Origin: Mycolicibacterium moriokaense
GTDB taxonomy: Bacteria; Actinomycetota; Actinomycetes; Mycobacteriales; Mycobacteriaceae
Reading direction: 5' to 3'
NCBI RefSeq assembly: GCF_010726085.1
Contig: NZ_AP022560.1
Location: 2,666,001-2,730,000 of the forward strand
Length of the DNA: 64,000 bases
In this document: positions 17,237 through 42,560 of the stretch, in pieces
Numbering within the stretch: position 1 is the first letter of the stretch
Layout of the letters: the number at the start of each line of letters is the position of its first letter
Notes under the pieces: generated by a model
What the model was told of the DNA's origin: nothing
What the model saw: only the letters and a program-made list of their open reading frames with translations
The model's database searches: none
Position numbers and translations under genes: made by a program

Positions 17237-17252
17237 TCCCGCCCAGCGGTTA
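17237..17252 (+). promoter_or_regulatory. Island motif copy 1 (upstream of padR-like gene)
   Basis: TCCCGCCCAGCGGTTA. It shares 12 of 16 bases with the copy upstream of kshA and is centred 48.5 bp before the leaderless GTG of the PadR gene. The last three bases of the GGGA half are altered, so it may be a weak site. Confidence 0.5.
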
Positions 17253-17280
17253 GTCCGCACTCGGGGGTGACCCGTGTTGT

Positions 17281-17286
17281 TAGGCT
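17281..17286 (+). promoter_or_regulatory. Predicted -10 element of leaderless padR-like promoter
   Basis: TAGGCT followed by six bases and the GTG at 17293. Confidence 0.6.
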
Positions 17287-17292
17287 GAACAG

Positions 17293-17961
17293 GTGAAAGG
17301 CAGCGACCAGCAGGGGAAGTCGAACCTCGCGGCGACCAGTTGGGCGTTGTTGGGCATGCTCTCCTACGAATACGAGCTGTCGGGCTATGACATCCGCAAA
17401 TGGATCGACTGGAGCATGCGGTTCTTCTACGGGAGCCCTGCGTACAGCCAGATCTACTCCGAACTCCGCAAGCTCGAGCAGCTCGGCTATGTGACGTCGC
17501 GTGTCGAGGACGGCGGGACCCGCAATCGCAGGCTGTACAAAATCACCGAGGCGGGGATGGACGCCCTCACGCGGTGGGCGAATGAATCGCCCCTGGACCC
17601 GCCGGTGCTCAAGCACAGCCCGTTGCTGAGGGTGACGTTCGGGCACCTCACCACTCCGGCCAGGCTCAAGGAGATGCTGCAGGAGCACCTGGCCTACGCC
17701 GATGAAATGCACCGCAGCGCGGCCAAGGACGCGAAGTGGGCCAAAGCTGATCCGTCATGGGCATATGCGCGCGTGGCGCTGCAATGGGCCGAACGGTATT
17801 ACGCCAACGAGCGCGAGCTGACCTTGAAGATGATCAAGGAACTCGACGAGGCGGAGGCCCAGTTCCCGCGGGCCGGCGACGGCGGGCAGGGGAAGATCCC
17901 GTGGCCCGCACCGGATTACTGGTACGAGATCGAGAAGAAGGCCGAAGCCGACGACGCGTGA
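17293..17961 (+). CDS. PadR-family transcriptional regulator
   Basis: A 222-residue PadR regulator. The N-terminal winged helix (about 15-95) includes WALLGMLSYEYELSGYDIRK and YSQIYSELRKLEQLGYVTSR, then a basic wing ending GTRNRRLYKITEAG. A C-terminal helical domain (about 100-200) with HLAYADEMH is the dimerisation region of the PadR-s/Vir type. It stops one base before the stop codon of the convergent kstD-like gene, with no room for a terminator. It is a candidate regulator of the island, but known PadR operators (ATGT/ACAT palindromes) do not resemble the motif found here. Confidence 0.88.
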   Translation: MKGSDQQGKSNLAATSWALLGMLSYEYELSGYDIRKWIDWSMRFFYGSPAYSQIYSELRKLEQLGYVTSRVEDGGTRNRRLYKITEAGMDALTRWANESPLDPPVLKHSPLLRVTFGHLTTPARLKEMLQEHLAYADEMHRSAAKDAKWAKADPSWAYARVALQWAERYYANERELTLKMIKELDEAEAQFPRAGDGGQGKIPWPAPDYWYEIEKKAEADDA

Positions 17962-19677
17962 CTATGTCGCTGCCGCCTCGGTCGCCGCTTCTGTGGCCGC
18001 GATGTAGCCGTACACCAGACCCTGCGCAATCGTCGCGCCCGCACCGGGGTACGTCGCTCCGAACGCATTCGCCGCGGTGTTGCCGATGGCGTACAGGCCG
18101 GGGATGGCAGTGCCGTCTTCGCGCAACACCCGGGCACGTTCGTCAGCACGCAGGCCACCGCACGTACCGAGGTCACTCAGCGTCATCTTCACCGCATAGA
18201 ACGGGCCCTTGTCCAGCGGGCGCAGGTTTGGGTTGGGCGTGATGGTCGGGTCGCCGTAGTATCGGTCGTACGCGCTTCTCCCGCGGCCGAAGTCGGAATC
18301 CTCACCGGCGCGGGCCAATTGGTCGAAGCGCGATACCGTCGCCACGAACTGTCCTTCCGGCACGTTCATCATTCGGGCCAATTCGCCGAGATCGGATGAG
18401 CGGTGGGCGATGCCGGCGTCGTACCACGACTGCGGAAGTGGCTGGCGTGGAAAGCAATCCGCGGCAAAGACGTAACTGTTGCGGTACTGCTGATCGAAGA
18501 CGATCCACATTGTTTCGATCGGATCACCGGAGCGCTCGCGTTCGAGGACGCACTGTCCGAACGACATGTAGTCGGCCGCCTCGTTGGTGAACCGGCTGCC
18601 CGTCTGGTCGACGATCAGCGAGCCCGGCAGGGCTCGTTCGGCCAGCATGACCAGCGGGGCGCCCCCGGGAAGCGGAGCGACCGCCGGAAACCACCACGCC
18701 TGATCCATGAGAGCGATTCCCGCACCGGCATCCTGGGCGATCCGGATCGCGTCGCCGGTGTTGGTCTCGGCGCCCAGGCTGGTGTGTTCGCCGAGCGACT
18801 CGGACTGGAACTTCCACCGCATGTCCATGTTGTGGTCGAATCCGCCGGCCGCCAGGATCACTCCGCGTCGCGCGTTGACCGCGATCTCGTGACCGTCGTG
18901 CGAGACGACGGCTCCGGTAACCCTGCCGTCCTCGGTGATCAACCGCACCAGCGCGGTCTCCGTCCACACCCCGACGCCGGCGCGCAGGATCCCGGCGAAC
19001 AGGCCGGCGGCCAGGGCCTGACCGCCCGCGGCGTAGCGCCTGCCGATCAGCAGGCCACCTGCGCCCTGCGCCAGCCGTTTGGCGATGAGCGGCAAGCCTT
19101 TTCGGGGAACCCGCGCCATCAGGTTCATCCAGCGATAGTCCGCCCCGGTGGTGGGCATCGGCACGGTTGGCTCCATCAGCCCGGGACGCAGCCGTGAGCC
19201 GTACTGGCCGAGCACCGAGGTGTTGAAGGGTTTGCACTCACAGGTCCGCCCCACCGCACTTCCGCCGGGATGCTCCGGGTGGTAGTCGGAGTATTCCTTT
19301 GCCCACATGAACTTCAGCGGTGTCGTGCGCCGCAGCATCGCCACCGTTTCGGGAAGGTGGGCGACGAAACTCTCCGATCGCTGCGCGGGCGCGGTGCCGT
19401 CGACGACGGACTCCAGATACGTGCGCGCCTGCGAGGCGGTGTCACCCGCGCCGTTCTCCGCCAAAACCTGGCTTGCAGGGAACCACAGTGCACCACCGGA
19501 GCGCGCCGTGGACCCACCCACATATGGCGACTTCTCGACGATCAGCACCTTCAGCCCACGTTCAGCGGCCGCCAGCGCCGCCGCCATGCCCGTACCGGAG
19601 CCCACGACAAGCAGATCAACGGTCGTATCGGTCATCGGCAGGCCCGCGGGGATGGTCGCCTGAAAAGCACTCGTCAC
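17962..19677 (-). CDS. kstD: 3-ketosteroid delta1-dehydrogenase-like flavoprotein
   Basis: A 571-residue FAD enzyme of the KstD/fumarate reductase family that would remove hydrogens from C1 and C2 of a 3-ketosteroid. The FAD motif LLVVGSGTGMAAALAAAERG begins near residue 22, followed by GGSTARSGGALWFP. The C-terminal GPFYAVKMTLSDLGTCGG places Tyr494 near the catalytic tyrosine known at 487 in rhodococcal KstD1, and ATYPGAGATIAQG completes the FAD site. The GTG at 19677 is chosen because TAATGT lies six bases before it. It is divergent from kshA across 98 bp, matching the joint role of KstD and Ksh in opening the steroid B ring. Which of several mycobacterial paralogues it equals is uncertain. 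Confidence 0.82.
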   Translation of the reverse strand: MTSAFQATIPAGLPMTDTTVDLLVVGSGTGMAAALAAAERGLKVLIVEKSPYVGGSTARSGGALWFPASQVLAENGAGDTASQARTYLESVVDGTAPAQRSESFVAHLPETVAMLRRTTPLKFMWAKEYSDYHPEHPGGSAVGRTCECKPFNTSVLGQYGSRLRPGLMEPTVPMPTTGADYRWMNLMARVPRKGLPLIAKRLAQGAGGLLIGRRYAAGGQALAAGLFAGILRAGVGVWTETALVRLITEDGRVTGAVVSHDGHEIAVNARRGVILAAGGFDHNMDMRWKFQSESLGEHTSLGAETNTGDAIRIAQDAGAGIALMDQAWWFPAVAPLPGGAPLVMLAERALPGSLIVDQTGSRFTNEAADYMSFGQCVLERERSGDPIETMWIVFDQQYRNSYVFAADCFPRQPLPQSWYDAGIAHRSSDLGELARMMNVPEGQFVATVSRFDQLARAGEDSDFGRGRSAYDRYYGDPTITPNPNLRPLDKGPFYAVKMTLSDLGTCGGLRADERARVLREDGTAIPGLYAIGNTAANAFGATYPGAGATIAQGLVYGYIAATEAATEAAAT

Positions 19678-19683
19678 GCCTCG

Positions 19684-19689
19684 ACATTA
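19684..19689 (-). promoter_or_regulatory. Predicted -10 element of leaderless kstD-like promoter
   Basis: The minus strand reads TAATGT, six bases, then GTG at 19677. Confidence 0.6.
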
Positions 19690-19718
19690 GGTCGGGCCAA
19701 TCGCGGTGGTAGGGAGTT

Positions 19719-19734
19719 TCCCTCCCAGCGGGAC
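19719..19734 (+). promoter_or_regulatory. Island motif copy 2 (kstD/kshA divergent promoter)
   Basis: TCCCTCCCAGCGGGAC. Its centre is 49.5 bp from both the kshA ATG and the kstD-like GTG, exactly mid-way in the 98-bp divergent region. The arms TCCC and GGGA are inverted. Confidence 0.6.
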
Positions 19735-19763
19735 GATCGCCTCCATCGGCACTGCAGCCGACG

Positions 19764-19769
19764 TAGAAA
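19764..19769 (+). promoter_or_regulatory. Possible -10 element of leaderless kshA promoter
   Basis: TAGAAA followed by six bases and the ATG at 19776. The last position is A rather than the usual T, so confidence is lower. Confidence 0.4.
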
Positions 19770-19775
19770 CAGGCC

Positions 19776-20927
19776 ATGACGTTGCAGTCGGAAACCGATG
19801 CGGTTCGGCAGATCGAAGCTTCAGCGACGCCGACCAGATTCGCCCGCGGCTGGCACTGCCTGGGCCTGACCAGGGACTTCGGCGACGGCCAACCGCACTC
19901 CGTGCGCGCTTTCGGCCAGAAGCTGGTGGTGTTCCGCAGCGGCGACGGCAGGATCAACGTGCTCGACGCCTACTGCCGTCACATGGGCGGGGACCTCAGC
20001 CAGGGTGCGGTGAAGGGCAACGAGATCGCGTGTCCGTTCCACGACTGGCGGTGGGGCGGCGACGGCCGATGCAAGAACGTGCCCTACAGCAAGCGGACGC
20101 CGAGGCTGGCCCGCACCGCGACGTGGACCACCCTCGAACAGGACGGGATGTTGTTCGTGTGGAACGACCCCGAGGGCAACCCGCCGCCACCCGAGGTTGC
20201 CATCCCCCGGATCGAGGGCGCGACGAGCGATGAGTGGACCGACTGGCATTGGTACACCACTGTCGTCAACACCAACTGCCGCGAGATCATCGACAACGTC
20301 GTCGACATGGCGCACTTCTTCTACATCCACGGATCGCTGCCGACGCACTTCAAGAACATCTTCGAGGGCCACGTCGCGACCCAGTACATGAACAGTCGAG
20401 GCCGCCCCGATCTGGGTGAACCCGGCGAGACGCGGCTCCTCGGAACCACCTCGGTGGCATCGTATTTCGGGCCGTCGTTCATGATCGACGACCTGACCTA
20501 CCACTACGAGGACACCGACCACAAGACGATACTGATCAACTGCCACTATCCCATCGACGCGAATTCTTTTGTGCTGCAGTACGGCATCATCGTGAAGAAG
20601 TCGGAGACGTTACCCGGCGATGCGGCGCTGCAGACGGCGATCGCCCTCGGAGACTTCGTAAAGATGGGCTTCGAGCAGGACGTCGAGATCTGGAAGAACA
20701 AGGCGCGCATCGACAATCCGCTGCTGTGCGAGGAGGACGGGCCGGTCTACCAGCTGCGTCGGTGGTACGAACAGTTCTACGTCGATGTCGCCGACATCGA
20801 GCCCGACATGGTGGACCGCTTCGAATACGAGCTCGACACCACCAGTCCCCTCGAAGAATGGATGAAGATCGTCGAGGAGAACTTGGAGGCTCAAGGGGCG
20901 CAAGCGGCGGGGCCGGGAAGCTCCTGA
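19776..20927 (+). CDS. kshA: 3-ketosteroid 9alpha-hydroxylase, oxygenase component
   Basis: A 383-residue Rieske non-haem iron oxygenase that hydroxylates C9 of 3-ketosteroids; with KstD this opens ring B. The Rieske cluster ligands are C67, H69, C86 and H89, the same numbering as M. tuberculosis KshA, and the mononuclear iron site includes H180 and H185 in NVVDMAHFFYIH. The length matches KshA. It needs a KshB-type reductase, which is not in the window. Its stop overlaps the ATG of a 96-residue cysteine-rich protein by one base. Several KshA paralogues with different steroid preferences exist in actinobacteria, so the substrate is open. Confidence 0.9.
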   Translation: MTLQSETDAVRQIEASATPTRFARGWHCLGLTRDFGDGQPHSVRAFGQKLVVFRSGDGRINVLDAYCRHMGGDLSQGAVKGNEIACPFHDWRWGGDGRCKNVPYSKRTPRLARTATWTTLEQDGMLFVWNDPEGNPPPPEVAIPRIEGATSDEWTDWHWYTTVVNTNCREIIDNVVDMAHFFYIHGSLPTHFKNIFEGHVATQYMNSRGRPDLGEPGETRLLGTTSVASYFGPSFMIDDLTYHYEDTDHKTILINCHYPIDANSFVLQYGIIVKKSETLPGDAALQTAIALGDFVKMGFEQDVEIWKNKARIDNPLLCEEDGPVYQLRRWYEQFYVDVADIEPDMVDRFEYELDTTSPLEEWMKIVEENLEAQGAQAAGPGSS

Positions 20928-21217: not shown

Positions 21218-21220
21218 CTT
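21215..21220 (+). promoter_or_regulatory. Possible -10 element for the SDR at 21228
   Basis: TAGCTT overlaps the stop codon of the preceding gene and lies seven bases before the GTG at 21228. It could give the SDR its own leaderless transcript in addition to read-through from kshA. Confidence 0.35.
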
Positions 21221-21227
21221 CGACTGT

Positions 21228-22138: not shown

Positions 22139-23215
22139 CTAGGCCAATTGGAACGCGCTGATCGGTGCCTCGTCCGGATACGTCGCCGGTCCGCCCAGAT
22201 CATAGGCTGCGTTGAGCGCCATGATGAACTGCGGATCGTGTAGCGGCTCACTGGGAATGTCGAGCCTGACGCCGTTCTTGCCGGCGTTGTCGACGAGCAT
22301 GTCGATCGCCTTGTCGATCGTCAGATCGTCGGAGCCGTCCATGTTCTTCTTCAGCTCGTCGAAGTCCTCGAACACCTCAGCCGACCAATGCACGAGGAAG
22401 CGAAGCTCGTCGGTGTGGTGCCGGGCGATCACGTCATCGCCGTTCTTGAGCAGCCAATGGTCGCGGTCGGCGGGATCGCCGGTGAACACCGTGTCGAACG
22501 CCAGCCCGGCGGGAATCTGTTGCTCCAACGGGCCGTTGGCCTCGCCGCGGTGCACCATCATCTCGTTCTGGACCAGCACACCGCGGTTGTAGATCGGCGG
22601 CTTGACGCGCTGCGGCTCCTTCAGCGGGCCGTCGGGCCAGTAGGTGAAACCGCTGCCCTCGTCGTGGGAGAACCAGGTGATCACCTGGGCCATCTTGATC
22701 AGGTAGTCGCGGAACAACCCGGACTTGCCCATCACGCTGGTCAACCATGTCGGCGCATTCTCGTGGCGCACGCCGCGGAAACTGGGGGAGTCCAGATGGC
22801 CGGGGTCGCGGTTGGCGCACGGCCCGTTGATGTTGAACAGCATCATCTGCGGCTTGGCGTATACGGCGCTCCAATAGCTCTTGGCGAGGTCGACGAACCG
22901 CTGGTTGTAGAAGCAGTCGTGCAGTTCGGGATAGAGCACCGTGCCGTAGTTGGCGAGGTAGCCGCGAAAGGTCGGCGTGAGGAACAAGTCCAGCGACGGC
23001 TCGAAGCCCTCGGGGAACATGCCGCTCATCGTGGCGATCAGTTCCTCGGCGGACGCGAAATGCTGCGCGATGATCAGCCGCCACGGCCCCTGGGTGCGGA
23101 CGACGTCCAGCAGCCGATCCCGTTGATCGTCGGTGTACACACCGTCGATCTCGCGAGGCGGTGACACGGGTCGCAGAATGTCGGAAAGCTCCATCCGGCG
23201 TTCTTCGGTGAGCAT
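22139..23215 (-). CDS. Unassigned 358-residue protein with possible H-x-D...H iron site
   Basis: Not recognised as a named family. The sequence is soluble, without signal peptide or membrane spans. H140-L-D142 in RDPGHLDSPSFRG and H222 in NEMMVHRGEANG are spaced like the facial triad of cupin-fold Fe(II)/2-oxoglutarate dioxygenases, with Arg223 right after the distal His. The start at ATG 23215 is preferred over GTG 23221 because AGGAG lies five bases before it. It is transcribed alone, convergent with the kshA operon, with an island motif copy 75 bp upstream, so it is probably expressed with the steroid genes. A ring- or side-chain-hydroxylating role is speculation. Confidence 0.65.
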   Translation of the reverse strand: MLTEERRMELSDILRPVSPPREIDGVYTDDQRDRLLDVVRTQGPWRLIIAQHFASAEELIATMSGMFPEGFEPSLDLFLTPTFRGYLANYGTVLYPELHDCFYNQRFVDLAKSYWSAVYAKPQMMLFNINGPCANRDPGHLDSPSFRGVRHENAPTWLTSVMGKSGLFRDYLIKMAQVITWFSHDEGSGFTYWPDGPLKEPQRVKPPIYNRGVLVQNEMMVHRGEANGPLEQQIPAGLAFDTVFTGDPADRDHWLLKNGDDVIARHHTDELRFLVHWSAEVFEDFDELKKNMDGSDDLTIDKAIDMLVDNAGKNGVRLDIPSEPLHDPQFIMALNAAYDLGGPATYPDEAPISAFQLA

Positions 23216-23282: not shown

Positions 23283-23298
23283 GTCCGGTGATCGGGAG
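23283..23298 (+). promoter_or_regulatory. Island motif copy 3 (upstream of the 22139-23215 gene)
   Basis: GTCCGGTGATCGGGAG, matching the copy at 38312 in 13 of 16 bases. A CACACT -10-like hexamer on the minus strand at 23247-23252 would place the start of transcription about 49 bp from the motif centre. The motif is in the opposite orientation relative to its gene compared with most other copies. Confidence 0.5.
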
Positions 23299-25680: not shown

Positions 25681-27258
25681 CTACGGCGCGAAAGTGTCCG
25701 GTGAGTGGAACGCATTCTCTGAGCCGAACCGGGTACGGAGGTCGCGTTTGAGCAGCTTGCCGCTGGGGTTCTTCGGCAGACTGTCGACGAAGAAGACCTG
25801 CTTGGGAGTCTTGTACCCGGCGAGGTGGCTGCGGCAGTGCGCGATGAGTTCGTCCTCGTCGGCTGTGCCCCCGTCCCGTATCACGACCGCTGGCACCACG
25901 GCCTCGACCCACACCGGGTGCGGAATGCCGAATACGGCGACTTCCTCCACCTTGGGGTGCCGATACATAACCTCTTCGACCTCGCGGCTGGCGACGTTCT
26001 CGCCGCCGGTCTTGATCATGTCCTTCTTGCGGTCGACTACGTGCAGCTGCCCGAACTCGTCGAAGTAGCCGAGGTCGCCGGAGTGAAACCAGTCGCCGCG
26101 AAACGCCTCTGCCGTGCGGACCGGATCGTCGAGGTAGCCGAGCATCAGATGGGGCCCGCGGTGGGCGATCTCGCCGACCGTGCCCGGCGGCACGGGTTGG
26201 TCGTTGTCGTCGATGACGGCGGTCTCGACGTTGACCGCGGGTCTGCCTGCGGCGCCGGCGTGCTCACGCTGGTCCTCGGGTCCCATCGCGGTGGCGAGCG
26301 GTGCCATCTCCGTCTGGCCGTAGAAGTTCCAGAGCCGCAGGTTCGGCAGCCGTTCCTGGAGTTCGTTGAGTATCTCCGTCGGCATCGCCGATGCGCCGTA
26401 ATACCCCTTGCGCAGGCTGCTCAAATCAACCTGGTCGAAGATCGGAGACCGGAGTAGCGAGATCCAAACAGTCGGCGGGGCAAAGTAATTGGTCACCCCG
26501 TGGGCCTCGATGCCGCGCAGCACCAGCTCCGGATCGGGGCGGGGAAGAATGATGCTGGTCGCACCGAGGTAGATGTCGGTGGCGAGGAAATTGTCCAGTT
26601 GCGCGCAGTGGTAGAGGGGCATCGAGTGGATCTCGACGTCGTCGGACGTCATCGACCCGGCGACGATTGAACTGACGTAATTCGCCATCAGACTGCGGCT
26701 GGAGTGCATCACACCCTTCGGCCGGGACTCCGTGCCGCTGGTGTACATCAGCCGCAGCAGTTGATCGTCGTGGATCTCGAGGTCCGGCGCGGGCGTCGTT
26801 GTGGTGAGCCAGAGCGCGAACTCGTCCCACCCGGCCGGAGCGCGCTGTTCGCCAGTGGTCAACACCACTTTCGTCGTCACCGAGCCACCGCGGGTCATCG
26901 CCTGCGCGGCAGTGGAAACGAAGTCATGCTCGACGACCAGACCGCGCGCCTGACTGTGACCGAGGATGTAGGCGATCTCCTCGGCCGTGAGCATGAAGTT
27001 GATCGGCACGAGCACGACCGCGGCGCGCGCGGTCGCGAATGCCAGCACGGCGTACTGCCAGCAGTTGCGGGCCAGCAGTGCAAGTCGATCACCCTGCGCG
27101 AAACCGTTGTCCCGCAACGCGGCTGCAGCGCGATCGACCAGGTCATCGAATTCGGCGAACGTCAGCCTGACATCGCCGTCCACGATCGCTGTCTTGTCGG
27201 GACAGCGACGCGCTGACCGGCGCGGGATGTCGCCCAGGGAGTGGCTGCGAACCTGCAT
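25681..27258 (-). CDS. Acyl-CoA synthetase (FadD family)
   Basis: A 525-residue ANL-superfamily ligase that activates a carboxylic acid to its CoA thioester through an acyl-adenylate. The P-loop is MYTSGTESRPKGVMH (about 180-194), then YGQTEMAPLATAMGPE, the hinge region SGDLGYFDEFGQLHVVDRKK, GGENVASREVEEVM, and the C-terminal catalytic lysine in KNPSGKLLKRDL. The ATG at 27258 has GAGG upstream and lies ten bases after the fadE stop. The acid could be a steroid ring-cleavage product or a side chain; sequence alone does not say. Confidence 0.92.
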   Translation of the reverse strand: MQVRSHSLGDIPRRSARRCPDKTAIVDGDVRLTFAEFDDLVDRAAAALRDNGFAQGDRLALLARNCWQYAVLAFATARAAVVLVPINFMLTAEEIAYILGHSQARGLVVEHDFVSTAAQAMTRGGSVTTKVVLTTGEQRAPAGWDEFALWLTTTTPAPDLEIHDDQLLRLMYTSGTESRPKGVMHSSRSLMANYVSSIVAGSMTSDDVEIHSMPLYHCAQLDNFLATDIYLGATSIILPRPDPELVLRGIEAHGVTNYFAPPTVWISLLRSPIFDQVDLSSLRKGYYGASAMPTEILNELQERLPNLRLWNFYGQTEMAPLATAMGPEDQREHAGAAGRPAVNVETAVIDDNDQPVPPGTVGEIAHRGPHLMLGYLDDPVRTAEAFRGDWFHSGDLGYFDEFGQLHVVDRKKDMIKTGGENVASREVEEVMYRHPKVEEVAVFGIPHPVWVEAVVPAVVIRDGGTADEDELIAHCRSHLAGYKTPKQVFFVDSLPKNPSGKLLKRDLRTRFGSENAFHSPDTFAP

Positions 27259-28468: not shown

Positions 28469-28484
28469 GTCCCGCTCAGTAGAC
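28469..28484 (-). promoter_or_regulatory. Island motif copy 4 (fadE/BVMO divergent promoter)
   Basis: On the minus strand GTCTACTGAGCGGGAC, with inverted ends GTC and GAC. The centre is 50.5 bp from the fadE ATG and 52.5 bp from the GTG of the divergent monooxygenase. An ACACGTGT palindrome (28463-28470) overlaps one edge. Confidence 0.6.
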
Positions 28485-32307: not shown

Positions 32308-33238
32308 GAGCCGCCCCGGCGAAGACCGCTCCCAGCTGTGCGCACACCTGTTTACGCGCTTGCTGAGCCAGGTCCAGCATCGGCATCGTCATGAACCCGT
32401 GCACGCCGCCGTCGAAGGCGAGGCGCGTCGTCGCGACCCCTGCGTTCTCGAGCGCATCGCCGTAAGCCAGTCCCTCGTCGCGCAGCGGATCGTGGCCGGC
32501 GACGACGACGATGGCGTGCGGGAGTCCGCGCAGATCGCCGTTGAGCGGTGTGGCATAAGGATGTTCGCGGTTGGCGGGGGAGGGCACGTACTGGTCCCAG
32601 TACCACTGCAGCGCCGGGCGTGGGTTGTAGAAGCCCTCGCCGTAAAGGTGGTACGACTCCGTCTCGAAGTTCGGCGCGATCATCGGATAGAGCAGCAGTT
32701 GAGCCGCCAGCGCAGGCGCACCGCGATCGCGGGCCATCAACGCGACCGCGGCCGCGAGGTTGCCGCCCGCGCTGTCGCCGCCGACGACGATCCGGTTCGC
32801 ATCGCCACCGAGCGCGTCGGCGTTGCGGGCTGCCCACTGCGCCACGGCGAAGACATCCTCGGCGGCCGCAGGCCACGGGTGCTCGGGCGCGAGCCGGTAA
32901 GCGACCGAAACGACTACGGCGGGAATCAAATTCGTGAACGCGCGACACAACCCGTCGTGACTGTCGAGGTCGCAGAACACGAATCCGCCGCCGTGGGCGT
33001 ACACGAGCGTCGGCACCGGGCCGGGCATCTCCGCGGGGCGGTAGATCCGCGCGTCGATGCCGCCGCCCTGCCCGCGCACCGTGGTGTCGCGAACCTCGCC
33101 GACCTCTTCGGGTGAGGCCGCGGGCACGAAACGGGACCGAATCGTGGCGCGGGCCTGCGCCCCGGACATCGTGTGCACGGGCGGAAACCCGGCGTCCAGC
33201 GCCTCGATGATCTCCGCTATCTGGGGGTCCAGACTCAT
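32300..33238 (-). CDS. HSL-family alpha/beta hydrolase (esterase/lipase)
   Basis: A 312-residue family IV esterase, the second in the island. The oxyanion motif is YAHGGGFVFCDLDSHD, the nucleophile elbow VVGGDSAGGNLAAAVAL, the acid in AGHDPLRDEGLAY and the histidine in GVHGFMTM. The ATG at 33238 overlaps the IclR stop (ATGA). With the IclR regulator and two small barrel proteins it makes a compact four-gene cassette. It may hydrolyse an ester or lactone formed by one of the Baeyer-Villiger enzymes. Confidence 0.9.
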   Translation of the reverse strand: MSLDPQIAEIIEALDAGFPPVHTMSGAQARATIRSRFVPAASPEEVGEVRDTTVRGQGGGIDARIYRPAEMPGPVPTLVYAHGGGFVFCDLDSHDGLCRAFTNLIPAVVVSVAYRLAPEHPWPAAAEDVFAVAQWAARNADALGGDANRIVVGGDSAGGNLAAAVALMARDRGAPALAAQLLLYPMIAPNFETESYHLYGEGFYNPRPALQWYWDQYVPSPANREHPYATPLNGDLRGLPHAIVVVAGHDPLRDEGLAYGDALENAGVATTRLAFDGGVHGFMTMPMLDLAQQARKQVCAQLGAVFAGAARG

Positions 33239-34056
33239 GCGTACTGCAACTCGCCGACCGGGCGTACCGCGCCGCGAAGCGGACGCGCCTGCTGCAGCGT
33301 CGGCGCCACCCGCCTGGGTCCGTCCTCCACATCGCGCCAGATGCCCATCGCCGTCATGCGTACCGGAGCGGCGAGACGCTGGTCGAACATCATCCGGCTC
33401 ATCGGGCCACACACCGAGACCGCCGCGACGGCTTCGCCGGGAGCTCCGATCGGCGCTGCGACACAACCGAATCCGGCGATCGACTCCTCGCGGTCGAACG
33501 CCACTCCGCGGGCGCGGACCTTGTCCAGTTCGTCGCGCAGCTGGGCCGGCGTGCTGATCGAGTATCTGGTCTTGCGCGTGCTCAGATCAACGACATCGGC
33601 ATCACTGTTGTAGGCCAGGATCGCCTTGCCGACCGCCGCGCAGTGCGCGGGCTGGCGACCACCGACGCGGGTGGGAATCGCGGCCATCATCCGGTCGCCG
33701 ATCTTCTCGAGGTACATCACGTCGGAGCCGTCCAGCACGGCGAGATGCACCACCAGTCCGGTGGCGCGGTGCAGGTCGTGCAGGAGGGGGATCGCCGCGG
33801 AATGCAGCCGGTCCTGGTGCACGGCGAGTGACCCGAGTTCGACGAGGCGCATCCCCAGTTCGTAGTCGCGGCCGTTGCGGCGCAGCCAGCGCAGCGCCAC
33901 CAAGCGCTCGAGCATCCGGTGCGCCGATGAGCGCGGCAGACCCGTGCGGCGCACGATCTGAGCCAGGTTCAGACGTCCTGGTCCGTCGAAGGCATCCAGT
34001 ACAAGCGACACCCTATCGATAACAGCACTGGGTGTGGTTTCGACGGCCCGAGTCAT
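33235..34056 (-). CDS. IclR-family transcriptional regulator
   Basis: A 273-residue IclR protein. The N-terminal winged helix (about 10-70) has LNLAQIVRRTGLPRSSAHRM and LERLVALRWLRR; the C-terminal GAF-like effector domain (about 85-255) has HLAVLDGSDVMYLEKIGD, CAAVGKAILAY and the cluster GFGCVAAPIGAPGEAVAAVS where inducers bind. GAGGAGG lies before the ATG. It is autocistronic with the esterase and two small proteins. Palindromes at 34105-34114 and 34123-34134 upstream may be its binding sites. It does not show an island motif copy upstream, so it may control this cassette separately. Confidence 0.9.
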   Translation of the reverse strand: MTRAVETTPSAVIDRVSLVLDAFDGPGRLNLAQIVRRTGLPRSSAHRMLERLVALRWLRRNGRDYELGMRLVELGSLAVHQDRLHSAAIPLLHDLHRATGLVVHLAVLDGSDVMYLEKIGDRMMAAIPTRVGGRQPAHCAAVGKAILAYNSDADVVDLSTRKTRYSISTPAQLRDELDKVRARGVAFDREESIAGFGCVAAPIGAPGEAVAAVSVCGPMSRMMFDQRLAAPVRMTAMGIWRDVEDGPRRVAPTLQQARPLRGAVRPVGELQYA

Positions 34057-34104
34057 GATGCCTCCTCGCGGTCATATGACTAATAGAAATATGCCTATTT
34101 GTAG

Positions 34105-34114
34105 CACACGTGTG
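34105..34114. promoter_or_regulatory. Palindrome upstream of iclR-like gene
   Basis: CACACGTGTG, perfectly self-complementary, centred 53 bp upstream of the iclR-like ATG. A possible operator. Confidence 0.4.
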
Positions 34115-34122
34115 TGCCGGGT

Positions 34123-34134
34123 GTCACTAGTGAC
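34123..34134. promoter_or_regulatory. Second palindrome upstream of iclR-like gene
   Basis: GTCACTAGTGAC, a perfect 12-bp palindrome eight bases beyond the first. Two palindromes next to an IclR gene with a low-GC stretch (34075-34103) between them and the gene suggest a regulated promoter. Confidence 0.4.
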
Positions 34135-34219: not shown

Positions 34220-34272
34220 CGAGATTGAACACAGGGCTGTGGATCCAGAGCACAACCCTGTGTTCAATCTCG
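34220..34272. repeat. Long perfect inverted repeat (17-bp arms)
   Basis: CGAGATTGAACACAGGG (34220-34236) is exactly complementary to CCCTGTGTTCAATCTCG (34256-34272). Inside, after one mismatch, TGTG and CACA continue the stem, leaving a nine-base loop. The arms have lower GC than the surroundings. It lies 48 bp after the stop of the flavoprotein gene at 34321 and about 160 bp before the iclR-like gene, both on the minus strand. A U-less terminator is the simplest role; a mobile palindromic element or a large operator is also possible. Confidence 0.75.
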
Positions 34273-36699: not shown

Positions 36700-37878
36700 T
36701 CAGATCAGCGCTCGCAGTGGGCCTTCGGGATCGACGCCGAACGAGCTCAGCGCCGACGCGTGATAGGGGACGCCGGGCACATGGATCGCGTGTGCCAGTC
36801 CGGCGTGTGCATCGCGCCAGTAGCGTTGCAGCGGTTTGTCCATCCGCAGCGCGTTGCCGCCCGAGCGCGCGAAGATCTGGTCGACGGCCGTCACGGCGCG
36901 CCACGCCGCGCGCACCTGCGTGCGGCGACCCGCGGCGCGATCCTCGAACGACACCTCTCTGCCGGAGTCGACGATGTCGTAGATCCGGTCGACATTGGCC
37001 AGCAGCTCCTGGCGGGCCGCGTTGATGTCGGCGGCGGCCTCACCGATGGCGTACATGACATAGGGGTCGTCCTTGACCGCGCCGTAGGCGCCGACGCGGT
37101 CACGCTGGTAGTCCAGGTGGGCGGCGAGCGCACCTTCGGCGATACCGATCACGGCGGACGTGATGCCCAGCGGGAACATCGTCGACCACGGCATCAAGTA
37201 CAGCGCCGAGGTCATGCCGGCCTTGCGCTGCGCGGTGCCGTCCATCACCTCGGTGGCATCCATCGTCCGGTAGTCGGGGACGAAGGCGTCGCGCACGATG
37301 ACGTCCTTGGAACCGGTGCCACGTAGGCCCACGACGTTCCACGAATCCTCGACGATCTCGTAGTCCTTGCGCGGCAGGATCATGTGCAGCATCTGCGGCG
37401 GCATCAGCGGTGCGCCCTCGGCGTCACCGAGGAACGCGCCGAGGATGATCCACTCGCACTGGTCGGTGCCGGAGCTGAACTGCCAGCGTCCGTTGAAGAT
37501 GTAGCCGCCGTCGACAGGCTTGGCCACCCCCTGTGGGGCGTACGGCGACGCGACCCAGGTGTCGACGTCCTTGCCCCAGATCTCCTCGGCCACCCGGGGA
37601 TCGGCGTACGCCAGCTGATACGGGTGCACGCCGACGACACCGTTGATCCACCCCGCGGCGGGGTCGAGCGATGCCGTGGCCATCACGGTCTCAGCGAACT
37701 CGCGAGGGTGAACCTCGTAGCCGTTGTACTTGGCGGGCTGCAGCAACCTGATGTTGCCTGCCGCCTTCATCGCCTTGGTCGTCTGGTCGGTGAGCCGGCC
37801 GATGGTCTCCGCCTCGGCGGCCTGCTCGCGCAATTGCGCGGCCATCTCCATCACCCGGTCGATTACCCGCTCGGTCAT
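36700..37878 (-). CDS. HsaA-like flavin-dependent monooxygenase (acyl-CoA dehydrogenase fold)
   Basis: A 392-residue protein of the HsaA/HpaH-type group D monooxygenases, which use reduced flavin to hydroxylate a phenol to a catechol. The N-terminal ETIGRLTDQTTKAMKAAGNI, the middle NGRWQFSSGTDQCEWIILGA and the C-terminal GGNALRMDKPLQRYWRDAHA are hallmarks. Length equals that of HsaA. The Shine-Dalgarno AAGGA precedes the ATG. It heads the operon with the HsaC-like dioxygenase, so it should supply the catechol for ring cleavage. A flavin reductase (HsaB) is required but none is found in the window. Confidence 0.88.
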   Translation of the reverse strand: MTERVIDRVMEMAAQLREQAAEAETIGRLTDQTTKAMKAAGNIRLLQPAKYNGYEVHPREFAETVMATASLDPAAGWINGVVGVHPYQLAYADPRVAEEIWGKDVDTWVASPYAPQGVAKPVDGGYIFNGRWQFSSGTDQCEWIILGAFLGDAEGAPLMPPQMLHMILPRKDYEIVEDSWNVVGLRGTGSKDVIVRDAFVPDYRTMDATEVMDGTAQRKAGMTSALYLMPWSTMFPLGITSAVIGIAEGALAAHLDYQRDRVGAYGAVKDDPYVMYAIGEAAADINAARQELLANVDRIYDIVDSGREVSFEDRAAGRRTQVRAAWRAVTAVDQIFARSGGNALRMDKPLQRYWRDAHAGLAHAIHVPGVPYHASALSSFGVDPEGPLRALI

Positions 37879-37943: not shown

Positions 37944-37959
37944 TTCCCGGTCAGTGGAA
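37944..37959 (-). promoter_or_regulatory. Island motif copy 5 (upstream of hsaA-like gene)
   Basis: On the minus strand TTCCACTGACCGGGAA, with inverted TTCC and GGAA ends. A TAGACC hexamer at 37911-37916 could be the -10 and would put transcription start about 48 bp from the motif centre; the remaining leader contains the hsaA-like Shine-Dalgarno. Confidence 0.6.
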
Positions 37960-38311: not shown

Positions 38312-38327
38312 GTCCGGTCACCGGGAA
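38312..38327 (+). promoter_or_regulatory. Island motif copy 6 (upstream of second BVMO)
   Basis: GTCCGGTCACCGGGAA, centred 48.5 bp before the leaderless GTG at 38368. It is followed by an inverted repeat ACCGGG-N6-CCCGGT (38320-38337) that overlaps the motif and reaches the -35 region. Confidence 0.65.
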
Positions 38328-38355
38328 TTCACCCGGTTCTTGGTGGCCGACGACC

Positions 38356-38361: not shown

Positions 38362-38367
38362 GTGGTC

Positions 38368-39981
38368 GTGAGCAACGAGGCAGACGCGGATATCGACGTC
38401 GTCATTGTGGGTGCAGGGATCGCCGGAATCTATGCCCTGCACAAGTTCCGGTCGCTGGGGTTGACGACGCGGGTGTTCGAGGCGGCACCGGAGGTCGGCG
38501 GCACCTGGTACTTCAACCGATATCCGGGTGCCCGCTGCGATGTGGAGAGCGTCGACTACTGCTACTCGTTCTCCGACGAGTTGCAGCAGCAGTGGACGTG
38601 GACCGAGAAATACGCGACACAGGCCGAGATCCTGCAGTACCTGAACTGGGTCGTCGACGTGCTCGACCTGCGGGACGGGATTACGTTCAACACCCGCGTG
38701 ACGTCGGTGGTGTTCGACGAAGCCACCACGCGGTGGACGGTGGAGACCGACACGGGGGAGTCGGTGCGCACGCGGTTCGTCGTGATGGCGACGGGACCGC
38801 TGTCAGCGGCGTTGACACCGGACTTCCCTGGTCTGTCCACGTTCGCCGGCGAGATCTACCACACCGCGCACTGGCCCAAAGAGCCCGTCGATTTCACCGG
38901 CAAGCGCGTCGCGGTGATTGGCACCGGATCATCGGGCATTCAGTCGATACCGATCATCGCCGACCAGGCGGACTCGCTTGTCGTCTTCCAGCGCACCCCG
39001 AATTATAGTGTGCCTGCGGGCAATCGGAAGCTGACCGCGGAGGACGTCGCTCATTACAAGGCCAACTATGCCGAGCGGCGGCGGTTGTCATGGCGCAGTG
39101 GCGGTGGCTCTCCGCACATCGCGCATCCCAAGCTGACGATGCAGGCGACCCCGGAGGAGCGTAGGGCCGCATTCGAAAAGCGTTGGGAACTAGGCGGTGT
39201 GCTGTTCTCCAAGACGTTTAGCGACCAGATGACCGATATGGCGGCCAATGAGGAGGCACGCAAGTTCTACGAGGAAAAAGTTCGTGCGGTCATCGACGAT
39301 CCGGAGCTCGCCGATCTGCTGATCCCGAACGATCACCCGATCGGCACCAAGCGAATCTGTACCGACACCAACTACTTTCAGACCTTCAACCGGCCGCACG
39401 TCAAACTCGTCAGCGTGCGCAAGACGCCGATCGAGTGCATCGACGCGACCGGGATCAACACTTCCGACGCACGTTTCGAAGTCGATGTGATTGTGCTCGC
39501 CACCGGGTTCGACGCCATGACGGGCGCCCTGGCCAAGATTGACATCGTCGGGCGTGACGGCCACAGGTTGCGCGACGACTGGGCCGACGGGCCGCGCACC
39601 TACCTAGGGCTGTGCGTCGACGACTTCCCGAATCTGTTTCTGGTGTCGGGCCCCGGCGCACCCGCCGTGCTGGCCAACATGGTGCTGCACGCGGAAGCCC
39701 ATGTGAACTGGATCGCCGATGCCATCACCTATCTCGACGACCACGGGTACACCGCGATCGAGGCGACCGCCGATGCCGTCGAAGACTGGAACGCCGAACT
39801 GAACCGGCGGGCCGAGGCCTCGCTGTTCACCAAGGCCAACTCCTGGTATCTGGGGGCGAATGTGCCTGGTAAACCACGAGTTTTCATGCTCTTCATCGGC
39901 GGGTTCGCGGCCTACCTCGACATCTGCACCGAGGTTGTCAACGCGGGCTACAAGGGATTCGCCCTGCTGAAGGCGCCGTGA
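38368..39981 (+). CDS. Baeyer-Villiger monooxygenase (cyclohexanone/steroid monooxygenase type)
   Basis: A 537-residue type I BVMO. VVIVGAGIAGIYALHKFR (from residue 11) binds FAD, PEVGGTWYFNRYPGARCDVE follows, the fingerprint FAGEIYHTAHWP occupies 159-170 and VAVIGTGSSGIQ (from 181) binds NADPH. Length fits cyclohexanone-, cyclododecanone- and steroid monooxygenases. It oxidises a ketone to an ester or lactone. GTG 38368 is chosen over earlier in-frame codons because of the -10 at 38356. It heads an operon with two SDRs by overlap. A steroid ketone (C17 or side chain) is likely from context, but not proved. Confidence 0.92.
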   Translation: MSNEADADIDVVIVGAGIAGIYALHKFRSLGLTTRVFEAAPEVGGTWYFNRYPGARCDVESVDYCYSFSDELQQQWTWTEKYATQAEILQYLNWVVDVLDLRDGITFNTRVTSVVFDEATTRWTVETDTGESVRTRFVVMATGPLSAALTPDFPGLSTFAGEIYHTAHWPKEPVDFTGKRVAVIGTGSSGIQSIPIIADQADSLVVFQRTPNYSVPAGNRKLTAEDVAHYKANYAERRRLSWRSGGGSPHIAHPKLTMQATPEERRAAFEKRWELGGVLFSKTFSDQMTDMAANEEARKFYEEKVRAVIDDPELADLLIPNDHPIGTKRICTDTNYFQTFNRPHVKLVSVRKTPIECIDATGINTSDARFEVDVIVLATGFDAMTGALAKIDIVGRDGHRLRDDWADGPRTYLGLCVDDFPNLFLVSGPGAPAVLANMVLHAEAHVNWIADAITYLDDHGYTAIEATADAVEDWNAELNRRAEASLFTKANSWYLGANVPGKPRVFMLFIGGFAAYLDICTEVVNAGYKGFALLKAP

Positions 39982-40781
39982 TGTCGGGACTCGACGACAA
40001 GGTGGTCGTCGTTACCGGTGCCGCCAAGGGAACGGGGCGCGTGCACTGCCAACGGTTCGCCGACGAGGGCGCCGACGTCATCGCTCTCGACGCCGCTGAG
40101 GTCGCCGACGAGCTGGACGTCACCGCAGCACAGGTGCGCAAGCGAGGACGGCGATGCGTCGCCGCGACGGCCGATGTGCGTGACGCCGAGGCGATGTCAG
40201 CCGCGATCGACGCCGCGGTCGGCGAGTTGGGTCGGCTCGACGTCGTCGTCGCCAATGCCGGTGTCCACCTCGCCGGCGTACCGACCTGGGAGGTCACCGA
40301 GGAAGCCTGGCAGAACACGCTGGGCATCAACCTGACCGGGGTGTGGCACACCGTGAAGTCGACGGTGCCGCATATCGGCGAGGGCGGGGGATCGGTGGTG
40401 ATCATCAGCTCCACCAGCGGATTACGCGGTACCGCCAACTCCGCGGCCTACACCGCCAGCAAGCATGCGGTGGTGGGCCTGTCCCGAACGCTGGCCAATG
40501 AACTGGGGCCGCAACGCATCCGGGTCAACACCGTTCATCCGGGGGCGGTGGGCACCGCAATGGTGCTGAACGAGGCGACCTTCCGACGTCTGTGTCCGGA
40601 CGTGCCGAACCCGACGGCGGCCGACGCCGCCAAAGTCCTGCAGGCGCGCAACCTGTTACCGGTGCCCTGGCTCGACCCCGTCGACATCGCCAACGCAGTC
40701 GTGTTCCTGGCCTCCGATGAAGCCCGGTACATCACCGGCACCCAACTCGTGGTCGACGCCGGCCTGACGCAGAAGGTGTGA
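39981..40781 (+). CDS. Mycofactocin-associated type SDR oxidoreductase
   Basis: A 266-residue SDR. VVVTGAAKGTGRVHCQRFAD is the cofactor site, then GADVIALDAAE, ADVRDAEAM, NAG in VANAGVHLAG, Ser in IISSTSGLRG, and Y-T-A-S-K. The long insertion DEATFRRLCPDVPNPTAADA and the end FLASDEARYITGTQLVVDAG are shared with the next gene. The sequence style (GADVIALD, ADVRD, TNVDTPM-like segment) resembles the SDR subgroup whose NAD is not exchangeable and that depends on mycofactocin as electron carrier. It overlaps the BVMO stop; a GTG at 39978 is an alternative start. Confidence 0.85.
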   Translation: MSGLDDKVVVVTGAAKGTGRVHCQRFADEGADVIALDAAEVADELDVTAAQVRKRGRRCVAATADVRDAEAMSAAIDAAVGELGRLDVVVANAGVHLAGVPTWEVTEEAWQNTLGINLTGVWHTVKSTVPHIGEGGGSVVIISSTSGLRGTANSAAYTASKHAVVGLSRTLANELGPQRIRVNTVHPGAVGTAMVLNEATFRRLCPDVPNPTAADAAKVLQARNLLPVPWLDPVDIANAVVFLASDEARYITGTQLVVDAGLTQKV

Positions 40782-40783
40782 CC

Positions 40784-41611
40784 ATGGGGCGATTGCAGGG
40801 CAAGGTCGCGCTGATCACAGGCGCGGCGAGGGGAATCGGGCGGGCGCAGGCGGTGCGGTTCGCGCAGGAGGGCGCCGACATCATCGCGCTCGACATCTGC
40901 GGCGCGGTCGACACCGTCATCATTCCGCCCGCCACGCGGGAGGACCTCGACGAGACAGCTCGGCTGGTGTCTGAAGCAGGTGGCCGGATCGTCACCGAGG
41001 TCGCCGATGTCCGCGACACCGACGCGGTGCAGGCGGCGACCGACTGCGGCGTCGAACACTTCGGTGGTCTCGACATCGTTTGTGCGACAGCGGGGATCAC
41101 GTCACGCGGGATGACCGTGGAACTCAGCGAAAACGCCTGGCAGACAATGCTGGACGTGAATCTGTCCGGCGTCTGGCGCACCTGTCGCGCCACCGCGGGC
41201 CACCTCATCCAACGCGGATCCGGGTCGATGATTCTGATCAGTTCGATCGCGGGCCTCCGGGGGTTGGTCGGGGTGGCGCACTACACCTCGGCCAAACACG
41301 GTGTCGTCGGTCTCATGCGCACCCTCGCTAATGAACTTGCCCCACACAACATCCGGGTCAACACCGTGCATCCCACCAATGTGGACACGCCGATGATCCA
41401 GAACGATCATGTTCGCGGTGCATTCAGGCCGGACCTCGAGCATGTCAGCCGCGAGGAATTCGCCGAGGCGGCGCGGCCGATGAACATGCTGCCGATCCCA
41501 TGGGTCGAACCTGTCGACGTCGCCAACGCGTGTCTTTTCCTCGCCTCGGATGAGGCCCGATACATCACCGCCGTCACGCTGCCGGTCGATGCCGGGAGCA
41601 CCCAGCGCTGA
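40784..41611 (+). CDS. Mycofactocin-associated type SDR oxidoreductase (carveol dehydrogenase-like)
   Basis: A 275-residue SDR, clearly of the mycofactocin-coupled subgroup: LITGAARGIGRAQAVRFAQE, then GADIIALDICG, PATREDLDETARLVSEAGG with VTEVADVRD, a long C-terminal insert after HPTNVDTPMIQND, and FLASDEARYITAVTLPVDAG. Catalytic Ser, Tyr, Lys are in LISSIAGLRG and YTSAKHG. Such enzymes oxidise alcohols (carveol, long alkanols, hydroxysteroids). The ATG at 40784 has GAAGG upstream; GTG 40778, overlapping the previous stop, is possible. It is paralogous to its neighbour, with about half the residues apparently shared, so an old tandem duplication is likely. Confidence 0.88.
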   Translation: MGRLQGKVALITGAARGIGRAQAVRFAQEGADIIALDICGAVDTVIIPPATREDLDETARLVSEAGGRIVTEVADVRDTDAVQAATDCGVEHFGGLDIVCATAGITSRGMTVELSENAWQTMLDVNLSGVWRTCRATAGHLIQRGSGSMILISSIAGLRGLVGVAHYTSAKHGVVGLMRTLANELAPHNIRVNTVHPTNVDTPMIQNDHVRGAFRPDLEHVSREEFAEAARPMNMLPIPWVEPVDVANACLFLASDEARYITAVTLPVDAGSTQR

Positions 41612-41615
41612 GATC

Positions 41616-42473
41616 TCAGCGATTCAAGAACGCCAGCACGGTGCTTTCGAACGCGGCCTTGGCCTCGATCATCGCCCAGTGCCCACAGTTGGGGAACACA
41701 TGCAGTTCGGCGTTGGGAATTGTGCGCATCGGGATGAGCGCCATGTCGAGCGGGCTGACCCGGTCGTCGCGTCCCCACGTCAGCAACGTCGGTGCGGCCA
41801 CTTTGTGCATCGTCGCCCACGGTAGGGGAGCGTCGGATGCGCGCATCGCGGCCATCATCTGCGTGAACGCCGCCTTGCTATACATCCGTCGGGCGCTCTC
41901 CAACGTCGGCGGATCGGTCGCCAACGCCCACCGCTCCTCGATCAGCTTCTCGGTCACGAGGGCGGGGTCGAACACCATCGAATGCAACCAGTCGATCAGG
42001 CGCTGCCGAGTCGGGTTCTCGGTGAACTCCTGAAGTAGCCTGATGCCCTCGCTCGGCCCCGGAGAGAAGATGTTGGTGCCGATCCCCCCGATGGTCACCA
42101 GCCGCCGCACCTTGGCCGGCTGGCCGATGGCGTAGTTGATGCCGACGCCACCGCCCATCGAATTACCGATGATGTCGACGGCGTCGAGGCCGAGCGCGTC
42201 GACGAAGGTGCCGACCGCGCCGAAGGCCGTGATCATCGGGTGGCCGCCGAAGTCGTCGCTCACCCCGAAGCCGGGAAATTCCAGCACCAAGCAGCGGAAG
42301 TGCTCGGCGAAGGTGGGAAGAATGCCGCGGTAATTACGCCAGCCCGTCACTCCGGGACCGGAGCCGTGCAGCAGCAGCAGTGGTGAACCGGCGCCGGCTT
42401 CGTGGTAACGAAGGACGCCCGCGTCGGTCGTTATCTCGCGAAGCGTGCTGTCGTAAGTCAATTCCGCTGTCAT
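41616..42473 (-). CDS. HsaD-like meta-cleavage product hydrolase (alpha/beta hydrolase)
   Basis: A 285-residue C-C hydrolase of the HsaD/BphD/MhpC type, acting on the ring-fission product of an extradiol dioxygenase. The oxyanion region LLLLHGSGPGVTGWRNY, the nucleophile Ser105 in GNSMGGG, the aspartate in LLTWGRDDRVSPLDMAL and the histidine in FPNCGHWAMIEA are conserved; the last two stretches closely follow what is known of HsaD. It completes the hydroxylase-dioxygenase-hydrolase set with the HsaA- and HsaC-like enzymes, though it is a separate transcription unit, convergent with the SDR (four bases apart). AGGA precedes the ATG. Confidence 0.88.
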   Translation of the reverse strand: MTAELTYDSTLREITTDAGVLRYHEAGAGSPLLLLHGSGPGVTGWRNYRGILPTFAEHFRCLVLEFPGFGVSDDFGGHPMITAFGAVGTFVDALGLDAVDIIGNSMGGGVGINYAIGQPAKVRRLVTIGGIGTNIFSPGPSEGIRLLQEFTENPTRQRLIDWLHSMVFDPALVTEKLIEERWALATDPPTLESARRMYSKAAFTQMMAAMRASDAPLPWATMHKVAAPTLLTWGRDDRVSPLDMALIPMRTIPNAELHVFPNCGHWAMIEAKAAFESTVLAFLNR

Positions 42474-42544
42474 CACCGATCCTGTCGCCGACCATTGGGC
42501 CGTCGCCCATACTGGCATCGTGACACATGGTGGCGCAGACACGG

Positions 42545-42560
42545 TCCCGGTGAGTGGGCT
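42545..42560 (+). promoter_or_regulatory. Possible island motif copy 7 (upstream of hsaD-like gene)
   Basis: TCCCGGTGAGTGGGCT, a weaker match. A CAGTAT -10-like hexamer on the minus strand at 42509-42514 would give a start about 50 bp from the motif centre, the same spacing as at the better copies. Confidence 0.35.

Follow-up and report, generated by a model that had tools for sequence, protein, structure and literature searches.

A 64-kb stretch (the window) of the 6.2-Mb single-contig genome of Mycolicibacterium moriokaense carries, at roughly 14.7–42.6 kb of its length, an island of steroid catabolic genes, and raises the question of which regulator, acting at which DNA site, governs them. 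With kstD, kshA and hsa-like genes and an adjacent padR, both in the window and in its relatives, the island is the known C-19+ cluster, and it encodes one PadR and one IclR protein. An original prediction, made from the sequence of the window, described a recurring 16-bp motif upstream of most of the island's transcription units and put forward PadR and IclR as candidate binders without choosing between them. We find that this motif is a 15-bp dyad that follows the IclR protein from genome to genome and that a second, previously unreported palindrome, rich in AT, follows PadR; the evidence points to IclR as an activator acting at the dyad and to PadR acting at the second site. The probability that the dyad is the operator at which the island's IclR activates the enzyme operons and padR, with PadR repressing iclR through the AT palindrome, is in our estimate about four in five.

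In such a switch, IclR would sit on the dyad, centred some 50 bp ahead of the transcription start, and from there bring RNA polymerase to promoters equipped with a -10 but not a -35 element, turning on the C-19+ enzyme operons and also padR. PadR would in turn bind the 21-bp AT palindrome over the iclR start and block iclR, the result being a repressor-over-activator switch with negative feedback and, possibly, an input from CRP at iclR. We consider it likely that this two-tier arrangement, with every C-19+ operon and padR under IclR, iclR under PadR and a CRP box at iclR, keeps the pathway silent in more than 100 genomes of this genus, and in G253, G408 and G217 from a second genus of the same family; related clusters are PadR-alone or IclR-alone, so that the cascade has the look of two one-tier circuits joined together.

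The 15-bp dyad and its sites in the window

All seven 16-mers of the original prediction are present where it placed them, each exactly once, and the recurrence is real; the unit, however, is a 15-bp dyad, [GT][TC]CC[GA]CT[GC]AnCGGGA, whose centre is one G/C base. The sites at 28469 and 37944 do score best on the minus strand, as had been said, but so do those at 17237, 19719 and 42545, which had been listed in the other orientation, and an eighth site (25696–25710) had been missed. Two placements also need correction, the site at 37944 lying between a ferredoxin-like frame and hsaA and that at 38312 between this same frame and the gene for the second Baeyer-Villiger-type monooxygenase (BVMO2).

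All window positions were ranked on both strands with a leave-out matrix trained on 222 sites in other genomes, to which neither the window nor its three closest relatives contributed. The seven sites take ranks 1, 2, 3, 4, 6, 8 and 9, the lowest-scoring being that at 19719, whose 11.1 bits fall under the 12.5-bit line. Eight matches of at least 12.5 bits are found in the window, against a mean of 1.23 and a maximum of 4 in 40 dinucleotide shuffles, and six of the eight sit in the intergenic 7% of the window; at least 17 bits is reached by four matches, against 0.17 in the shuffles, one of which contained a 21.3-bit match. The match at 6097 (13.7 bits), in coding sequence outside the island, is regarded as chance.

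Counts across the whole genome rest on strict patterns, not on the matrix. The pattern TCCRNTSANCGGGA has nine exact matches in the genome, three of them within the window, and since the remaining six are all inside predicted reading frames we claim no regulon members away from the island. A poorly chosen trial pattern, GGWCNSTCASNGGNAC, has no match in the window.

Conservation of the dyad in related genomes

For footprinting, stretches were taken from 44 other genomes of the genus, 36 of them chosen for carrying IclR and the 358-residue protein (p358) on one contig and eight for having IclR but no p358 found (G086 among these); gene order is largely kept among them. A gapped-dyad count that uses no matrix placed GTCC-n7-GGGA at the top, with occurrences in 77 of 305 upstream regions and in 0 of 305 coding controls. 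With the refined matrix, a site of more than 9 bits is present in 250 of the 260 regions upstream of padR, kshA, p358, bvmo1, hsaA, bvmo2 and hsaD. Sites of at least 11 bits lie upstream of padR (36/37), kshA (38/38), kstD (40/41), p358 (36/37), bvmo1 (37/37), hsaA (42/43), bvmo2 (40/41) and fadE (6/6), and in 34 of the 37 mapped regions upstream of p164. At the same threshold the dyad is scarce elsewhere: lipA 0/37, sdr2 0/38, sdr3 0/37, dabb 0/37, lipP 0/36, acs 0/13, sdr4 0/16, sdr1 1/18 and hsaC 1/43, several of the genes without a dyad being inner-operon genes. At 9 bits or more it is found in 15 of 36 upstream regions of kstD2 (6 at 11 bits or more) and in 3 of 45 of iclR.

Matches of at least 12.5 bits number 31 in 795 kb of coding sequence and 241 in 33 kb of target promoters, so that equal density inside genes is not what is seen; the densities (0.39 per 10 kb of coding interiors against 73 per 10 kb of target promoters) form a partly circular comparison, the matrix having been trained on those promoters, as the dyad count does not. 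A second set, of 80 loci with named organisms that overlaps the 44-genome set, has the motif upstream of hsaA in 75 of 75 mapped regions, bvmo2 in 72/73, bvmo1 in 64/65, p358 in 12/12, kstD in 11/13, kshA in 9/11, padR in 6/7 and hsaD in 21/46. Over 198 genomes of the genus, strict dyad matches average 3.30 per genome where an IclR orthologue is present (n = 115) and 1.61 where it is not (n = 83), the latter group including smaller, less complete genomes.

The matches thus concentrate upstream of orthologous island genes, kept in promoters and depleted in coding sequence, which supports the proposal of the original prediction that the island has a regulon of its own, separate from that of KstR. 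Its remark that no KstR-type box stands at these sites also holds, in that TnnAACnnGTTnnA has no exact match in the window and six one-mismatch matches against 5.5 expected. A KstR2-type box has 16 two-mismatch matches against 10.1 expected, a number that 8 of 100 shuffles reach. Control by KstR or KstR2 was rejected, the boxes being at or near chance level.

Promoter geometry

In 205 of 259 promoters a [TCG]AnnnT hexamer starts 37–39 bp gene-ward of the dyad centre (at 37 bp in 40, 38 bp in 147 and 39 bp in 18), and any other offset from 14 to 55 accounts for at most 19 of the 259. TTGA, sought as a -35 box at offsets 14–21, occurs in only 4 of 259. In clusters outside the matrix training (the paralogue clusters of G108 and G148, with G253, G408, G217 and G388), NAnnnT is found at 37–39 on at least one side of 20 of the 23 sites that reach at least 15 bits, and at each of four control offset triplets it is found for 1 or 2 of the same 23. 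With the first hexamer base taken as -12 of the predicted transcription start, the dyad is centred near -50; this position, the fixed spacing and the lack of a -35 box together point to the geometry of an activator.

The same geometry bears on two other readings. The fixed distance from dyad to -10 could mean one bipartite promoter, a promoter type read by a third, unlinked regulator or by a sigma factor, but some 38 bp from centre to -10 is too long for a -35/-10 pair, the 15-bp palindrome is used in both directions, and the motif follows the iclR gene into other clusters and into another family, all of which makes this reading highly improbable. Alternatively IclR, which belongs to a family with many repressors, would bind the dyad as a repressor and be released by an inducer; the dyad, however, stands upstream of the core promoter, at a fixed phase and with no -35 box, and a further objection comes from the iclR promoter itself.

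A second palindrome at the iclR promoter

At iclR lies a 21-bp AT-rich sequence, CATATTCCTAnTAGGAATATG, a perfect or near-perfect palindrome that differs from the GTCC dyad; its copy at 34073–34093 is the sole match in this genome at up to one mismatch. It reaches at least 8 bits in 44 of 45 iclR promoters, G086 being the exception, and no other class of promoter attains that score; in the named loci, all 79 iclR promoters carry it at 15 bits or more. Among the 198 genomes, with up to one mismatch allowed, 114 of the 115 with an IclR orthologue have it, as do 4 of the 83 without. The match in G086, counted among the 114, lies a long way from the cluster and has the look of a chance one; in the 115th genome, G164, the copy at iclR carries two mismatches. 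The four positive genomes without an orthologue comprise G185, with a split iclR and the site in place, G178, with a related cluster and the site at iclR, G029, where the match looks like chance, and G114, where no island gene was detected around the palindrome. The G114 copy (L170, G114:C1:3046110) is well preserved in a genome of 3,268,203 bases; the stretch fetched around it spans 12 kb, and the copy looks like a fossil operator.

In 28 of the 45 iclR promoters a TAnAnA lies at 20 bp from the centre of the palindrome. As the palindrome of the window lies just downstream of TACAAA, it covers the predicted iclR start, which is the position of a repressor, and as expected of a PadR repressor a palindromic site overlaps the promoter, here predicted, that would be controlled. 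PadR sites have a consensus of the ATGT-n8-ACAT type; compared with that one consensus, the core of the palindrome, ATATnnCTAnTAGnnATAT, is an AT-rich dyad unlike it. PadR mutants reportedly express the cluster; should the site at iclR be the only one of PadR, this would make IclR an activator, since the loss of PadR could then switch the cluster on only through an activating IclR. Were IclR instead to repress from the dyad, loss of PadR, whose conserved site is only at iclR, would raise IclR and deepen repression, contrary to the derepression reported, and we regard a repressing IclR as unlikely.

The AT palindrome often has an overlapping second copy, shifted by 15 bp (34088–34108 in the window; also L045, L049, L063 and L072), with three copies in G012, and such copies may mean cooperative PadR dimers. 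G253, which belongs to another genus of the family, has a second AT palindrome ahead of a short-chain dehydrogenase/reductase (SDR) gene (L133, position 1533), and PadR may have more targets there. A CRP-like box, GTGA-n6..8-CACA, occurs in 34 of the 45 iclR promoters, which suggests that iclR is under carbon control; the spacing of the box from the predicted iclR -10 element is unusual for activation. Between the kstD2-like gene and iclR there is also a 16-bp perfect inverted repeat with a 19-base loop (34221–34271), not seen by eye in the relatives in the iclR promoter alignment.

Segregation of the motifs with the two regulators

Among the 198 genomes, 115 have an IclR orthologue and 117 a PadR orthologue, nearly always together: IclR is alone only in G086, and PadR alone only in G042, G075 and G185. 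Since the two genes almost always occur together, it is the exceptions that decide between the regulators.

Two IclR clusters in genomes that lack a PadR orthologue have the dyad. G086, whose IclR is 62% identical and in which PadR has no orthologue (the best PadR-like match, elsewhere in the genome, shows 38% identity over 121 residues, E 8e-12), has dyads upstream of iclR (20.9 bits) and of bvmo2 (19.7–19.8 bits). G388, a member of another family with an IclR of 45% identity and no PadR match at E 1e-10, has five dyads of at least 18 bits, including one upstream of iclR and one upstream of hsaD. No AT palindrome is present in the fetched cluster of either. These dyad scores hold with G086 and G108 removed from the matrix, and the paralogous IclR clusters of G108 and G148 likewise carry the dyad.

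Five PadR clusters that lack IclR have an AT palindrome instead. Five genomes without an IclR orthologue (G158, G089, G159, G066 and G030) have PadR genes of 39–53% identity, with a best IclR-family match of at most 42% and none beside padR. None of the five has a GTCC match of at least 12.5 bits within 4 kb of padR (G089 has three, of 12.6–14.4 bits, at least 6 kb away, and the other four have none in the 11–20 kb fetched), and all five have a weaker AT-type palindrome in the padR intergenic region. The PadR paralogue clusters of G028, G081 and G144, genomes in which the main island is also present, have an AT-type palindrome at padR and no dyad nearby. For more distant PadR genes the copy lies directly upstream in G283, on the far side of padR in G298 and 1.5 kb away in G399, and the 5-kb contig of G337 has none. 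A separate conserved cluster (L128–L131, L164–L167), made up of padR, a lipase, a Baeyer-Villiger-type monooxygenase, an SDR, two fadE and an acyl-CoA synthetase, is apparently controlled by PadR alone.

Dyads in IclR clusters without PadR and AT palindromes at PadR without IclR amount to a double dissociation of the motifs, on which ground we judge PadR unlikely to be the binder of the GTCC dyad. Were it so, PadR would repress the enzyme promoters directly and the AT palindrome would be an autoregulatory site of IclR, an arrangement in keeping with PadR's standing as the cluster's genetically known repressor, with the dyad at padR's own promoter (36/37) and with G075 and G042, which keep dyads and PadR with no IclR orthologue found. 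Yet the dyad is present in G086 and G388 and is missing beside PadR in the five IclR-less genomes, where the AT palindrome stands instead, and its fixed spacing upstream of the -10, about 50 bp from the start, suits activation. Direct repression by PadR at the dyad is accordingly improbable.

A number of observations nonetheless weigh against IclR as the activator at the dyad under the control of PadR. The iclR gene is linked to dyads and co-inherited with them except in three genomes: G075, whose island is decaying, has lost IclR and keeps a 16.6-bit dyad near padR; G042 has PadR and two dyads (20.4 and 19.1 bits), and its assembly contains neither an IclR orthologue nor an AT palindrome, which may reflect an assembly gap (230 contigs, the island contig ending near padR); and G185 (L119), whose iclR is split into two frames, retains the AT palindrome and, at hsaA, a dyad of 23.7 bits, with no dyad of at least 12.5 bits at padR. 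G018 (IclR 53%) has matches of at least 12.5 bits only in coding sequence, and in G239 (IclR 52%, PadR orthologue absent) neither of the two dyads lies beside iclR. Distant IclR genes of G205, G238, G338, G317 and G315 (44–54%) have neither motif in the stretches fetched; an alignment of the helix-turn-helix shows their recognition helix to be almost the same as in IclR proteins with the motif, so that this helix does not explain the motif's presence or absence. Sites are irregular at hsaD (19/27 at 11 bits or more; 21/46 in the named loci) and teA (14/29), an extra site occurs in 15 of 70 kstD2 upstream regions, and strict matches also occur in genomes without an IclR orthologue, so that lone genomic matches mean little. 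On the genetics of PadR, Fernandez-Cabezon et al. in 2017 reportedly found that M. smegmatis mutants in PadR (MSMEG_2868) express the silent C-19+ cluster. Finally, what the sequences show is the two motifs, where they stand, how they are conserved and which protein each of them follows; transcription starts are predicted, and protein–DNA binding, activation, more generally the sign of regulation, and the inducers are what we infer from sequence.

The islands of G185 and G075 (L117–L118) are both decaying, that of G185 with its split iclR and that of G075 with iclR gone and kstD and kshA incomplete.

The island and its genes

The island, which comEA and comEC adjoin, encodes KstD, KshA, HsaA-, HsaC- and HsaD-like enzymes, two Baeyer-Villiger-type monooxygenases, FadE, an acyl-CoA synthetase, several SDRs and the 358-residue protein in addition to its two regulators (Table 1). 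The 358-residue protein, with zero Pfam or NCBIfam matches, is an uncharacterised part of the steroid pathway; 97 of the 198 genomes have it, with identities mostly above 80%. The true start of the hsaD-like gene is probably inside the open reading frame (ORF) as listed. Outside the island, a protein with a PemK/MazF-type toxin domain (Pfam PF02452) is encoded at 57484–58074.

Table 1. Positions in the window of the regulatory sites and principal genes of the C-19+ island
Feature	Position	Strand	Evidence and remarks
Dyad between thioesterase gene and padR	17237–17251, centre 17244	-	Rank 6, 14.1 bits; padR TAGGCT -10-like hexamer at offset 37
padR	17293–17961	+	Pfam PadR winged helix, 41.4 bits (cut-off 27); proposed iclR repressor and IclR target
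kstD	17962–19677	-	NCBIfam PRK12845, 1072 bits
Dyad between divergent kstD and kshA	19719–19733, centre 19726	-	Rank 9; 13.0 bits, or 11.1 with leave-out matrix
kshA	19776–20927	+	KshA_C
358-residue protein gene	22139–23215	-	Start codon picked by ribosome-binding-like AGGAG
Dyad upstream of 358-residue protein gene	23283–23297, centre 23290	+	Rank 2; CACACT near fixed offset
Eighth dyad, upstream of p164-SDR-lipase operon	25696–25710	+	Rank 5; overlaps 3' end of acyl-CoA synthetase gene
Dyad between divergent fadE and BVMO1	28470–28484, centre 28477	-	Rank 1; GATACT near fixed offset
iclR	33235–34056	-	Pfam HTH_IclR 50.0 bits (cut-off 22), IclR_C 117.6 (cut-off 24); proposed island activator
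AT-rich palindrome, 21 bp, proposed PadR operator	34073–34093		41.2 bits; overlaps predicted iclR transcription start
TACAAA, predicted iclR -10 element	34098–34103	-	Promoter alignment
CRP-like box GTGACA...CACA upstream of iclR	34113–34128	-	Promoter alignment
hsaA-like monooxygenase gene	36700–37878	-	381.7 bits, under the 450 cut-off
Dyad upstream of hsaA-hsaC-kstD2-like operon	37945–37959, centre 37952	-	Rank 3
Dyad upstream of BVMO2	38312–38326, centre 38319	+	Rank 4; TACCGT -10-like near fixed offset
BVMO2 gene (FMO-like)	38368–39981	+	Second Baeyer-Villiger-type monooxygenase
hsaD-like hydrolase gene, ORF as listed	41616–42542	-	271.4 bits, under the 400 cut-off
Dyad upstream of hsaD-like gene	42545–42559, centre 42552	-	Rank 8

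Implications

Industrial steroid intermediates could, according to PMC5962712, be obtained in higher yield if the C-19+ cluster or its genes were deleted. With both operators named and the regulators put in order, there are defined genes to delete or express for silencing the pathway or switching it on. The proposed wiring is kept across many mycobacteria, and it suggests how regulator families of two ordinary kinds may be layered to form a feedback switch, for which the single-regulator relatives are natural controls.

Comparison with known systems

KstR and KstR2 are TetR proteins with other boxes. Their regulons likewise control mycobacterial steroid catabolism, and their boxes are at or near chance level in the window. 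The C-19+ clusters of M. smegmatis, which we take to span MSMEG_2851–2901, and of M. neoaurum ATCC 25795 contain kstD, kshA, padR and hsa-like genes, as does the island, the M. smegmatis comparison being drawn from the literature and not from its genome. In ATCC 25795 (L224) the iclR half of the island carries both motifs.

In PMC5962712 the C-19+ cluster is described as having apparently evolved apart from the KstR regulon, MSMEG_2869 is tied to C-19 steroid catabolism and ATCC 25795 is credited with a homologous cluster. PMC5270728 lists no KstR operator at MSMEG_2867, 2869, 2870 or 2893 and gives cholesterol induction folds of -1.17 to 1.21, and PMC10672877 describes the C-19+ pathway as tightly regulated, its natural activation mechanism not being established. 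The MSMEG_2869 levels in PMC4881515 (9.14 on androstenedione, 18.40 on cholesterol and 10.92 on glycerol, with an inconsistent check by quantitative reverse-transcription PCR) indicate that the gene is not wholly silent there. Another palindrome, motif X, is reported in PMC6593523 from a mycobacterium, where it stands upstream of genes that steroids induce and that have no KstR box; the authors assign it to an Rv0767c-type TetR regulator and to other operons, and it is by this description, not by its letters, that we set it apart. In the open-licence literature, outside which most subscription journals lie, we found no description of operators, an activator or a cascade for the C-19+ cluster.

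The IclR activators of aromatic catabolism, PcaU, PcaR and PobR, share their IclR domains with the island's protein, and their palindromic sites, upstream of the core promoter, resemble the dyad in placement. The island's IclR differs from them in its score against the NCBIfam PcaR/PcaU profile (120.9, cut-off 284.75), in its pathway and in its proposed control from above by PadR. PadR-alone clusters have a conserved AT-type site beside padR itself. PadR-family repressors in general have, as here, the Pfam PadR winged helix and a dyad site over the promoter; unlike theirs, the conserved site of the C-19+ island precedes the gene of a proposed activator rather than the enzyme genes or padR.

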